A stretch of DNA of 64,000 nt, from assembly GCA_028875655.1 (NCBI GenBank), contig JAPPCX010000066.1:18412-82411 (forward strand). Direction: 5' to 3'. Position 1 is the first letter of the stretch; each line of letters starts with the position of its first letter. Shown piece after piece: positions 29,937-56,593 of this stretch. A program made the position numbers and the translations under genes. This DNA comes from Chloroflexota bacterium. GTDB lineage: Bacteria; Chloroflexota; Dehalococcoidia; Lucifugimonadales; UBA3495. Below the pieces are notes generated by a model. It was given only the letters and a program-made list of their open reading frames with translations, was not told where the DNA came from and did no database searches.

Positions 29937-30037
29937 CGGTTTGCCTCCATCTCATGGTCAAGGTTAGTGTGCCTAACCGGCCCGATGCTATACTACCTTC
30001 ACCCCACTCGCAACCAAGTTTCTTATTCGAGGAAACC

Positions 30038-30493
30038 GTGCCGCCCAGAATCCGCCGCGAACCCCCGGCCCGCCGGGACGCCCGCATCCGCAAGCATCTG
30101 GCCCAGGCCAAAGATTATTGGCTCAAGGCCCCGGTGGAATTAGCGCAGGGCGATGTTTGTCAGGCCGGCGAAAAAGGCTGGGGCACGGTTGCCCAACTGA
30201 CCAAAGCGGTAGCTACGCTGCGTGGTTGGGAACACTACGACCACGAGGCCATCAGAGAAGCAATCGCCGCTTTAGCAGGAGAACTCCCCGAACAGGCAGA
30301 ACCGATTTACCGCGGCATGAGGGCGGCCGAGGCTTTGCACGGCAATTTTTATGAAGTCTATATGACCCCGGACCTGGCCCGTTTCGATTTGTCCGAGGTG
30401 CGTCCACTGCTTGAAATTCTCTGGGGGTTGCTGCCCGAGGAACATACTGGCAGAGCATCCTTTGGCGAATGGATTGAAACCAGCGAAGATTGA
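30038..30493 (+). CDS. PaREP1-like domain protein
   Basis: LAQAKDYWLKAPVELAQGDVCQAGEKGWGTVAQLTKAVATLRGW; GTG start inferred. Confidence 0.6.
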   Translation: MPPRIRREPPARRDARIRKHLAQAKDYWLKAPVELAQGDVCQAGEKGWGTVAQLTKAVATLRGWEHYDHEAIREAIAALAGELPEQAEPIYRGMRAAEALHGNFYEVYMTPDLARFDLSEVRPLLEILWGLLPEEHTGRASFGEWIETSED

Positions 30494-36564: not shown

Positions 36565-36935
36565 CTCGCATACCCTCCACGCTTTACAGGTTCCACTACG
36601 CTGCCGCACAGAATACCCGATTTCCGCCACCCGCGCCACCATCCCAAATCTCACGCGCTCCGGGTTTCACCCAATAAATTCCCAAAATTGGTGACACCTC
36701 CTGCCATTATGACCCCCGTTAGCGACCATCCTATCCGCTATACTGTACTAACGTTCGGCAAACGGCCGGCGGGAGAACCAGCGCTGTCCCCCGCCGTCCA
36801 CGCCCCAAACCCCGCGCGCAGGGCCGGGGCAAATGCTGAAACCTATCCGCCATCGGCGGACACATCTGAATAGGGTTCCAAAGGGTTCGGGTGAAACACG
36901 GCCTAATCGTCGCGGGTTGGCCCCCGCGGCAACCA

Positions 36936-37208
36936 GTCGGATTTCTTGCACCGCTGGCTCGCGCCTGAGGCTGTTTTATTCCGCAGCATGGCCTTGACCA
37001 GTACGGCGGGTGTCACCACCGCTCCACGAGGGTCGCATGTCCCCTCTTCCGCTCATCCTGAGCTGCCGTAGGTCCGCCTATGGTGAATCGAAGGATGGTC
37101 GGGGGCGGGCAAGTGAGGGCGTAATGCTCTCATCGACCAATACGGTCAGCACGTGGAATTCTAGGACGTAATATCGCAAAAATGCTCTCGGGCCGTAGCG
37201 CCGACCAC
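36936..37208. repeat. Copy 1 of an unassigned dispersed element (conserved flanking blocks, variable hairpin core)
   Basis: Matches 53432..53684 in inverted orientation (see finding). Confidence 0.85.
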
Positions 37209-37301
37209 CTGGACCCCCGGAACCCTGAAAAATCAATCCTCGGAAAAACCAAACCCTGCGCCGACCGACGGAGAGGAGCAAGCCAGGCAAATAGCACAAG
37301 G

Positions 37302-37326
37302 GTAGGGGCGAATAACTATTCGCCCC
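37302..37326. repeat. GTAGGGGCG...CGCCCCC hairpin repeat
   Basis: gtaggggcgaataactattcgcccc. Confidence 0.8.
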
Positions 37327-52532: not shown

Positions 52533-53315
52533 CTAGTACCGGTCGCGGAGGATGAGAGGGTTGGGCAGGCGGGTGCGGAAGGTTTTTTCGAGGGCGTATC
52601 GCCAGGGTGGAGACAGGGTGATGCGGTTGGGGTCTCGCGTCTTGTCCCAGAGGTCGGCGTGGCACGGGCAGCGCCGGGGCTGGTCGCCGCGCGGGTAGAA
52701 GCCGTGAGGGTCCGGGTCGGTGTCCATGCCGACGCCGGCCAGGCGGAACTTCTGCCGGATCTCGGAGAAGTTAGGCAGGGCGAGAATCTGCTGGACGGAG
52801 GTTAATTGGGGCAGGTCCGGTAAATCGGGTTTGCGTTGCCAAAGCTTGTGGTAATGCACGGGTGGGGGATTGCCGGCAATTACCGCGTTGACGTCTTTGA
52901 CGAGGGAGGCCACCCGGCGACGCATACGGCGGAGTTGGGTTTGGCATGGATTTACAGGATGCGCAGGATGATGGGATTTTGATTTGGGATTGGATGGCGA
53001 TTCCAGAATACCCCTCTCCCCATCCCTCTCCCGCAAGGGGAGAGGGGGATCTGTCGATAGGGTGTGAACCTGCCGCAGCGTTGTGAGGTGCGAATAGCTG
53101 AGGTTGGCAGAGGCGATGTTGGCGCGCAGCGCGATCCCCAATTGGCGCCGGGATTTGTGCGGCCAGCCCTGGTGGACCGCAAGAGCCGTGATTACGTGGG
53201 TTGCGGCGCGGCGCAGCGACCCGAAGGCCGAGGCATGGTCGCGGTGGGCGATGGCCTGGTCGGCACGGTAGAGGAACCGGTGGGCCTGGGCCTGATGGTG
53301 AGAAATGGTCCCCAT
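52533..53315 (-). CDS. Hypothetical protein (possible HEPN-like N-terminus) with in-frame repeat insert
   Basis: Intact 260-aa ORF; central section encoded by palindromic repeats at 52943..53048. Confidence 0.5.
   Translation of the reverse strand: MGTISHHQAQAHRFLYRADQAIAHRDHASAFGSLRRAATHVITALAVHQGWPHKSRRQLGIALRANIASANLSYSHLTTLRQVHTLSTDPPLPLRERDGERGILESPSNPKSKSHHPAHPVNPCQTQLRRMRRRVASLVKDVNAVIAGNPPPVHYHKLWQRKPDLPDLPQLTSVQQILALPNFSEIRQKFRLAGVGMDTDPDPHGFYPRGDQPRRCPCHADLWDKTRDPNRITLSPPWRYALEKTFRTRLPNPLILRDRY
52943..53048. repeat. Two dispersed repeats within an ORF: ACAGGAT-type repeat plus CCCCTCTCCC...GGGAGAGGGG palindrome
   Basis: ggcatggatttacaggatgcgcaggatgatgggat; cccctctccccatccctctcccgcaaggggagaggggg. 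Confidence 0.8.
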
Positions 53316-53431
53316 GCTGGAATGTTGCTCCTGGATTGGGGCTTGGCGCCTGGCGATTCATTCCTGGTTTTCCTTGGATATCCGGTTGTTGTTGCCTGGG
53401 TTTGGTTTAGGGTTGGGGTCTTGGGAGGTTC

Positions 53432-53684
53432 AGGTTGTCGGCGCTACGGCCAGAGAGCGTTTGGCTTGCGATATTACGTCCTAGAATTCCGCGTGCTGAC
53501 CGCCTTGCCCGTCCCCGCCTGGATTCCCGCCCCGTATCAAGTACGGGGTGACGTTCTTTCGCGGGAATGACGGTGTTGGGGTTACGACCCTCGCGGAGCG
53601 GTGGTGACACCCGCCGTACTGGTCAAGGCCATGCTGCTGAATAAGGCAACCTAGGGCTCGAGCCAGCGATGCAATGAATCCGAC
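53432..53684. repeat. Copy 2 of the unassigned dispersed element
   Basis: Reverse complement aligns with 36936..37208 outside the core. Confidence 0.85.
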
Positions 53685-53893
53685 GATGTTGACCGTTGTT
53701 TTACCTGAACCTCTTGATGACACCCCACCGCGCTGGATTCCGGATCAAGTCCGGAATGACGGGGCGAGGTGGATGACCCCATGAATGGAAATTTCCGGTC
53801 GGGCGTTGGGCCGTGGCCTTTGGCTTGTGGTCCGACGTGGAGTACAGTATAGGGAACTGGTGTGCTGATTAGCAAGGAGCGGGTGTCATTGGT

Positions 53894-54122: not shown

Positions 54123-55648
54123 TTAGCCACGCCTGCGCCGTGCCGTCCGATGTGCCCTGCCACGGCGGATGTTCCCTTCGTTGGATGGCAACAGGTGTCC
54201 GGCGCGCCTGTTTGCATCCTGTAGTCCCGATAGGGTCAACCTGTCCCGCTTTTCCTTGTTGCAGGGAGGACATAAGAGGGTAAGGTTGTCGTAAGCATCG
54301 GTCCCTCCGTCCGACTTCGGCAACACATGGTCAACCTCCAGCACACGAGGGTCACACCCGTAGTCTCGCCCGCAGCCCTGGCAGAAAGGCCCGATGTCGG
54401 CCAGCAGGTTCACGTGCTGGGTCCGGGGTGCTGGGTATCTCTGAGGCCGGCCCGTGGGCGTCCGCAGCGTCAGCGTGGCCGGTTCCCCGCCGTCCGTCCG
54501 CTGGGGCGGTTCCTTCGCATAGACAACGCGCCGGTTGGATTGAATGCGCCCGAAGGCGTCGGGGTGGTCCGTGTCGAAACCGTCCGCCATGAGCCGCTTC
54601 AACACCACTTCGTGCGCCCCGTCCCAGATGTCCATCCCGACCCACTGCCGGCCCAGCCGCTCCGCCGCTACCGGCGTCGTGGCGCAACCACAGAACGGGT
54701 CCAGCACCACATCCCCGGGGTTGCTGCTCGCTTGGATGATGCGCTCGTAGAGGGCCAACGGCTTCTGTGTGGGATAGCCCGTCCGTTCCTGGTGGTTGCC
54801 AGTAAGCCCGCCAATGTCGTCCCACAGGTTGGCTACAGGCTTACCTCGGTTCTCCGATAGATAGACCTTGCGCCTGGGCATACCGCCGGCCCTTGCGGGA
54901 AAGTGTATACGTCCCTGACTCTCCAATTCCTCTAACCGCTCTCTGGAGTATCGCCAAGTCCGGTCGTGGCCGTAATACTCAAACTGATACCCCCCCCGCT
55001 TAAACCGCCCGTATGAAGGGGAGCGGTGGAATAACGCCCCCTCTCATCGCTGTATTGGTACGCCTTTTCGACATATTCAGCATCCAAATCGGAGTAAGCG
55101 CCATTCCAAATCCCTTTCCCGTCTTTAGCGTAGAACAAAAGGCAGTCATACACCCGACCGTAGTTGTGGGCGTCATTGTGGGAGCCATACCTGCGCCATA
55201 CGATTTGGGAACGAAAAGCCTTGACTCCGAAAATAGCGTCCAGCAGGGCTTTCCCGTAGGCTTGAGCCGTGTCGTCCAAGTGAAGGTACAGGCTGCCATC
55301 CTCGGCAAGTATCCGGTGCATTTCCAGCAGCCGGACACCCAGCCAGCACAGGTAGGCGGCCATGTCGTCGCCGTAGACCTGTTTGGCAGTGTTGACCACT
55401 GCCCATACCTCCGGTTCGTCGCGTTGAATGGCAATCAGCCAGTCGTCGTGAATGTCGTCGCGCCAGCTCCACCGGTCTTGGAACGACGCGCCCTTTGCCA
55501 GGCTGTCCGGGGTGGCGTGGAAGTCCCTGGACTTGTTGAATGGTGGATCGGTGGCGATCAGGTTCACCGTTCCGCTGTTCATACCCCGGAGGAAGTCGAG
55601 GTTGTCGCCGTGGAAGAGGGTGCGGTTGGCGAAGTTCGGAGTGGCCAT
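54123..55648 (-). pseudogene. Beta-class DNA methyltransferase (N6A/N4C) fused to C-terminal HNH; frame broken at a G8 tract (54990..54997)
   Basis: ATDPPFNKSRDF (motif IV) in the first frame; [28 protein letters not shown] (motif I) and [10 protein letters not shown]...[31 protein letters not shown] (HNH) in the second. G6 or G9 gives one ORF ...[35 protein letters not shown]... Confidence 0.88.
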
Positions 55649-56593
55649 TTAAGCCGCTCTCGCGGTCAGGTCCACGTACCGGAGCCGCTTACCGTCCGCG
55701 CCTCGAACCATCGCGCCCATCTGGTCCCTGGTGTCCATGGGCCGGTTGTTGTGCCGGCCCTCGAATTCAGTGTTGTACCGATGCAGATGCTTGACTGAAA
55801 TGTGGTGAAACGTCCCGTCGATCCCGCGCTTGAACATCGCCCAATGGCTTTCCATCCCATTTGTGTGAGCCATCCCCCGCACGTACTCCCCTGCGCTATG
55901 AGCAACCGCCGCGTGCGGCCTGGGGATACCCCGGTAGGCGGCGGCTTCGTCGGTGTAGACCTGGGCGGTTGGCTCGGTATTGCGAGTTACGAAGCCCTGG
56001 AGCGTTGCCTTATCGGTAGATGCAACTACCGCGGTGCGGACCTGGTTCGTCTCCCTGTCTTTGAGGCCAACCACCGGGGTTTTGCCAACAGCCCCGCGCC
56101 CAGCCTTTAGCTTCGTCGACTCATGCTTGTTCTTTTCCAGCCCGCCGATATAGGTTTCGTCGACCTCTACCGGGCCGGCGAACAGGCCGTTGTCGTGAAT
56201 CCATGCCTGGCGGATACGATGGCCCAGGTGCCAAGCCGTCTTTTGGGTAACTCCCAAGTCCCGGTGCAACTTCATGCTGGACACGCCCTTGAGGTTGGTT
56301 ACCAGCAGATAGAGGGCCAGGCCCCAAGCCTTGAGCGGGAGCTTGGAAGCGTGCATGACGGTTCCGGTCTTGACGCTGAAATCCTTGCGGCAGTCGTTGC
56401 AGCGGAAGGGCTGGGGTTTGCGGGTAGTGCGGTGCTGGATATTGGCGGAATCACAAACCGGGCATTCCACGCCGTCGGGCCAACGCTGCTCCACGAACCA
56501 AGACTCCGTGAAGTCCGGGTCAGAGAACATCTCCACAGCCTGGAACAGGCTGATACCCTTGCGGTAGTGCTTGCCGGGAGCGTTGTTGGCCAT
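55649..56593 (-). CDS. IS1595 family (ISXO2-like) transposase
   Basis: CPVCDSANIQHRTTRKPQPFRCNDCRKDFSVKTGTVMHASKLPLKAWGLALYLL...VEVDETYIGGLEKNKH...YTDEAAAYRG; N-terminal zinc ribbon; stop abuts methyltransferase ATG (TAAATG). Confidence 0.95.
   Translation of the reverse strand: MANNAPGKHYRKGISLFQAVEMFSDPDFTESWFVEQRWPDGVECPVCDSANIQHRTTRKPQPFRCNDCRKDFSVKTGTVMHASKLPLKAWGLALYLLVTNLKGVSSMKLHRDLGVTQKTAWHLGHRIRQAWIHDNGLFAGPVEVDETYIGGLEKNKHESTKLKAGRGAVGKTPVVGLKDRETNQVRTAVVASTDKATLQGFVTRNTEPTAQVYTDEAAAYRGIPRPHAAVAHSAGEYVRGMAHTNGMESHWAMFKRGIDGTFHHISVKHLHRYNTEFEGRHNNRPMDTRDQMGAMVRGADGKRLRYVDLTARAA

Follow-up and report, generated by a model that had tools for sequence, protein, structure and literature searches.

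What is the short repeat that occurs twice, in inverted orientation, within the 64,000 nucleotides of Chloroflexota DNA analysed here (the window)? The original prediction described an element of ~250 bp whose two copies share conserved blocks around unrelated middles, and offered a structured RNA, a nonautonomous mobile element or a hotspot for palindromic repeats as its possible identity. Both copies are present as described, and each of the three identities is supported in part by the results below. The repeat is real but longer than ~250 bp, each unit extending from a promoter through an AAGGAG-like tail; the earlier reading did not include the promoter, a HEPN gene as partner or the number of copies.

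Extent and parts of the window copies

The covariance model R1, whose training set includes both window copies, matches copy 1 at 36882-37217 (+) with E ~1e-56 (184.6 bits) and copy 2 at 53425-53713 (-) with E ~1e-60 (196.4 bits); a scan of the window with R1 gave no further significant match. The parts of the two units are as follows.

36673..37318 (+), copy 1, RNA-only: stretch absent from the syntenic G008 site (L256 flank junction)
36739..36749 (+), copy 1 -10 region TATACTGTACT, by direct reading
36883..37216 (+), copy 1 RNA core, P1 to P1 (R1 match)
36883-36891/37208-37216 (+), copy 1 P1
36898-36903/37191-37196 (+), copy 1 P2
36936-36940/37201-37205 (+), copy 1 P3 (pseudoknot)
around 36946-36950/37175-37179 (+), copy 1 P4
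37023-37028/37152-37157 (+), copy 1 P7
37031-37036/37142-37147 (+), copy 1 P8
37037..37141 (+), copy 1 variable apical hairpin inside P8, with CTCATCCTGAGC palindrome
37270..37278 (+), copy 1 AAGGAG-like tail motif GGAGAGGAG
53846..53875 (-), copy 2 sigma70-like promoter, TTGCTA-N18-TATACT
53425..53713 (-), copy 2 RNA core (R1 match; fold more stable than its shuffles, z = -3.0)
53504..53584 (-), copy 2 variable P8 apical hairpin with CATTCCCGCGAAAG... palindrome
53369..53377 (-), copy 2 AAGGA tail motif
53328..53333 (-), probable ribosome-binding site of the HEPN ORF (CAGGAG)
52533..53315 (-), partner gene behind copy 2, 260-aa predicted HEPN-fold protein (AF2, Foldseek, homologues preceded by RNA)

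The -10 box TATACT lies at 36739-36744 in copy 1, where the -35 is weak, and at 53846-53851 in copy 2. The promoter has the same position in the copies read across RNA types, and a motif similar to that of copy 1 is present in the tails of those A-type copies read that are RNA-only.

Architecture and covariation of the RNA

Across the ~30 copies aligned, the unit consists, in order, of a sigma70-like promoter, a leader, a core of ~200-300 nt and an A/C-rich tail running to AAGGAG. The core comprises stems P1, P2, P4 and P5-P8 plus a P2/P3 pseudoknot: P1 (GAGGTTCAGG/CCTGAACCTC in copy 2) is the closing stem, and P2 (ACGGYC/GRCCGT) and P3 (GTCGG/CCGAC) interleave and thus form the pseudoknot. 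The covariance check proposed for the structured-RNA option bears that option out, since compensatory covariation was found: in 18 trimmed cores 90.1% of cells are paired, versus 27-43% when the partners are slid by 1-3 columns, and 41 cells in 13 pairs are changed on both sides versus 15.4 +/- 3.9 after shuffling. P7 occurs as CCACG/CGTGG, CCGCG/CGCGG and GCGCG/CGCGC. Within this A-type set P2 has a single varying pair, and no pair of P3 or P4 is changed on both sides. Between types P1 is rewritten with its complementarity kept (-25.8 kcal/mol for a type's own arms versus -9.8 across types), and P3 passes from GTCGG/CCGAC to GTCAGC/GCTGAC and ATCAGC/GCTGAT; because G-U pairs allow type-swapped P3 strands to pair in 55/110 cases, support for P3 is moderate.

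The apical stretch of P8 ranges from 26 to 158 nt between copies and often holds palindromic repeats. The middles earlier called unrelated hairpin cores are such palindromic repeats lodged in the P8 loop, and to this extent the hotspot idea survives, the core itself being left intact. An Rfam scan, suggested as a way to detect a known RNA, gave no match in the window at the gathering threshold, a lax scan around copy 1 returned chance-level matches only, and literature searches found no description of the family. We consider it almost certain that this previously undescribed RNA family and its HEPN partnership are real. The tails of loci L185, L186 and L192 contain 1-3 copies of the repeat TCGCCTGAC, complementary to the RNA 5' end GTCAGGCGA; as read from the letters, this complementarity is possibly an outer stem or a switch.

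The partner HEPN protein

The earlier statement that no ORF is conserved across both copies is correct for the element itself, inside which no conserved ORF of the kind expected from a decayed IS was found, but it passed over an intact 260-aa ORF that stands behind copy 2 and not behind copy 1. Its product is modelled (AF2, pLDDT 87) as a HEPN fold at residues 1-88 followed by a C-terminal domain (PDPHGFY..C.CH). The top Foldseek match is 2hsb (AF0298; E 3.6e-3), and the best nine matches are all HEPN-fold with probabilities of 0.91-1.00, none at E <= 0.001; by modelled fold the partner belongs to the HEPN superfamily. Pfam gave no Abi_2 (PF07751) and no PF05942 match, and a homologue reached only a sub-threshold match to PF05168 (HEPN; E 0.035). 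H7, H40 and R134 are invariant in 34/34 sequences and R36 is kept in 32/34. In place of the usual Rx4-6H motif, the HEPN domain has R36-x3-H40 plus H7 and R134, so its RNase activity is uncertain. The AF0298 group is likewise without the usual His, and a different conserved His may form an alternative active site there (PMC3710099). Searches of phage, plasmid and viral-contig sequences with the HEPN protein found no relative.

Several observations stand beside these results. The linker at residues ~90-120 (PLPLRERDGERG...) reads like an in-frame translated palindromic repeat insertion. D-type HEPN ORFs (L217, L219, L220 and L118) have ATC rather than ATG at the start position behind a good SD (ATC GGA ACC in L118 and L219), and possibly use non-standard initiation. 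The window also encodes, at 29954-30493, a generic small HEPN protein of the PaREP1 family (PF05942), with no RNA match upstream in the R1 scan of the window.

Pairing and co-diversification of RNA and HEPN gene

Relatives of the copy 2 ORF in G002, G006, G009 and G011 lie in the same position after the RNA. More distant homologues in G003, G004, G007, G010 and G012 are preceded by RNAs too diverged for BLAST that keep the P1-P2-P3 order, P3 not being recognisable upstream of L112. The RNA lies directly upstream in nearly all clade HEPN genes read, the exceptions being genes truncated where a contig stops; in the complete genome G007, 13/13 listed HEPN loci, whole or partial, are at most ~350 nt downstream of an RNA on the same strand. 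Placing the six RNA types, named mainly by P1 and assigned by eye, on the HEPN tree takes 5 changes, which is the minimum, against a mean of 19.3 after shuffling, a clustering that near-copies inflate. RNA type tracks HEPN clade, and the RNA-HEPN neighbourhood is near-constant. HEPN-only matches in other genera showed no such RNA upstream, which weighs little as the descriptor also missed several true copies.

Copy number, distribution and mobility

The nucleotide search suggested earlier found more partial copies on other contigs of the same genome and further copies among 60 relatives, mainly in genomes of the same genus. A motif for types B to E, CCGGCCGTN{1,4}GCTGA, has 104 matches in G007 and 74 in G003 (reversed control, 3 and 7), both of which are single-contig complete genomes. 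Such genomes carry ~70-100 RNA copies each, mostly RNA-only; RNA-only copies are found in types A to E and in G007 are several-fold more numerous than ORF-bearing ones. R1 detected the family in 9/14 genomes of the genus, counting that of the window, and in 0/46 genomes of other genera, nor was the family found in a 300-genome sample of the phylum. A lone motif match among 392 other genomes of the class was rejected, as it reads as unrelated coding sequence. So far, the family is limited to one genus of uncultured Dehalococcoidia. The named records are Chloroflexi/Dehalococcoidia MAGs, several of them sponge-derived as read from the record names.

Copy 1 is a lineage-specific insertion with presence/absence polymorphism. 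At locus L256 of G008 the left flank (to 36672) is joined directly to the right flank (from 37319), the insert is flanked by TTCACCC and TTCGCCCC, and R1 found no RNA at this locus in the 13 congeners examined. Many E-type units of G007 end in IS256-like TIRs, GGYAGCGTTCCGTT.../...AACGGAACGCTRCC, and about a dozen have perfect 9/9 target duplications versus 1% at random boundaries (for example AGTCATTTC at L273, GCGGCGCGA at L279, CCTTTGCGG at L301 and TCGCGCGCC at L303). RNA plus HEPN gene is found between such ends at L328 (duplication 8/9) and L330 (9/9, poor right end). A resident IS of ~1.07 kb in G007 shares these ends, shows a 9-bp duplication and encodes a Mutator/IS256-type transposase in an apparently broken frame. 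We think that the G007 RNA units were mobilised in trans, because the resident IS shares their ends. For the window copies and their G000 relatives, the search for TIRs or target duplications found none and stayed at chance level. The mobile-element option thus holds in part, through the copy 1 insertion and the G007 relatives.

A Mutator/IS256-type IS of G007 at L341:240-1380, its frame apparently split, stands in a CRISPR-like repeat context (GGTTCCCCCGCACACGCGGGGAT). In the window, copy 2 had been placed about 210 bp from an IS1595-like insertion; the transposase (55649-56593, PF12762) is really ~1.8 kb away, and a link was rejected on this distance and on the different IS family. Beside this transposase, an HNH-domain DNA methylase (54123-55648) is split into ORFs 54126-54926 and 54935-55648.

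Constraint on the core

Among G007 RNA-only copies of the same type, differences amount to 1.3-1.8% in the core, 9-12% in the adjoining promoter/leader and 18-27% in the tail, that is, the core varies about five-fold or more below adjoining sequence, and in G003 the values are 9%, 25% and 23%, all for copies picked by a 16-nt core motif plus P1 ends, which forces some identity, and with tail figures distorted by indels. The gap between core and flank is too wide for the selection of copies alone. The conserved core has two readings, purifying selection or localised gene conversion.

Comparison with known systems

The closest parallels each share some features and differ in others. As in AbiF (an Abi_2 HEPN), a non-coding RNA with its own promoter lies directly upstream of a HEPN-fold gene; the core here is ~200-300 nt and pseudoknotted whereas abiF RNA consists of ~34-nt motifs, the HEPN protein is unrelated by Pfam and without Rx4-6H, and many copies are RNA-only. 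Membership in AbiF/Abi_2 fails on both the Pfam domain (PF07751) and the catalytic motif. The abiF RNA (RF03085 / RCd22) can act in trans as an antitoxin (PMC12373285), and the present module works like AbiF at most by analogy. Type III toxin-antitoxin systems (ToxIN, CptIN, TenpIN) share the RNA-then-protein order in one unit, but the protein here has a predicted HEPN fold and not the ToxN fold; membership was rejected on the single folded core, rather than a tandem-repeat array, in the copies read or aligned. HEARO, the OMEGA RNA of IscB elements, is a large structured RNA upstream of an ORF with many ORF-less copies. The present RNA resembles it in these respects, but its partner is a HEPN protein instead of an HNH/RuvC nuclease; with no Rfam match and a HEPN protein downstream, it was not assigned to this group. 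PaREP1/AF0298-type HEPN-T proteins (PMC3710099) have the same fold and a non-canonical motif with a conserved His elsewhere, whereas the protein here has an extra C-terminal domain and an RNA partner. IS256/Mutator MITEs match the G007 E-type units, though not the window copies, in TIRs and 9-bp duplications; the units here differ by containing a structured RNA under its own promoter and, in some cases, a HEPN gene.

Proposed function and alternatives

For a structured RNA that is paired with a HEPN gene and dispersed to RNA-only copies, we propose, with a probability of about 0.5, that RNA and gene form a mobile two-part module in which the RNA acts on its partner protein in trans. The large pseudoknotted RNA would be transcribed from its own promoter with the HEPN gene behind it, fold, and bind the cognate HEPN protein in trans; the bound RNA would restrain this protein, or the two would make up an RNP, in the manner of abiF RNA and AbiF, and the RNA-only copies would be extra RNA doses spread by a transposase acting in trans. 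The RNA-HEPN order, the RNA-specific promoter, the cognate types and the RNA-only copies are the expected traces of a trans-acting RNA. An antitoxin-like action of the RNA, argued from the AbiF parallel, has slightly less than an even chance. More tentatively, the system may represent a new class in which ~100 mobile, individually conserved RNA copies supply RNA in trans to a HEPN-T partner. Against the trans module, the retention of each of 70-100 redundant RNA copies per genome is hard to explain, and gene conversion could account for the conserved core. The atypical HEPN motif, the lack of TIRs and target duplications at the window copies and the missing covariation of P3 and P4 within the A-type set also weigh against it.

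The position of the RNA between promoter and ORF would also suit a leader that regulates the HEPN gene in cis, as a riboregulator or attenuator, with the RNA-only copies as internal deletions, and several of these copies do retain the SD and first HEPN codons; we regard this as unlikely given the several-fold excess of RNA-only copies in G007, their occurrence in types A to E and their cores, which are far less variable than the flanks. The G007 TIRs and 9-bp duplications, the resident IS with matching ends, the high copy number and the copy 1 polymorphism are what a selfish non-autonomous transposon would show, in which the RNA, with or without HEPN, would promote nothing but its own propagation, for instance by assisting transposition or masking the element. 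This seems improbable: conservation is highest in the core although an IS256-type transposase should need the ends only, RNA types diversify together with HEPN clades, and the G000 copies are without such ends. A functionless decayed IS or palindrome hotspot, suggested by the palindromic repeats in the loops, has a very slight chance, being contradicted by the compensatory changes, the retained promoter, a core conserved above its flanks, and intact, co-diversifying ORFs.

Cas13 is thought to descend from AbiF and its RNA (PMC12373285). A second RNA-HEPN pairing, apparently of independent origin and with a far larger RNA and co-diversified types, would point to repeated recruitment of RNA partners by HEPN proteins. 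For a non-coding RNA of bacteria, about 100 structured copies with promoters in a genome of 4 Mb is a striking number, and one easily missed because short-read assemblies break at the RNA copies. If the system does represent the new class considered above, the RNA being supplied in trans, the RNA rather than the protein would be the main product of the family.
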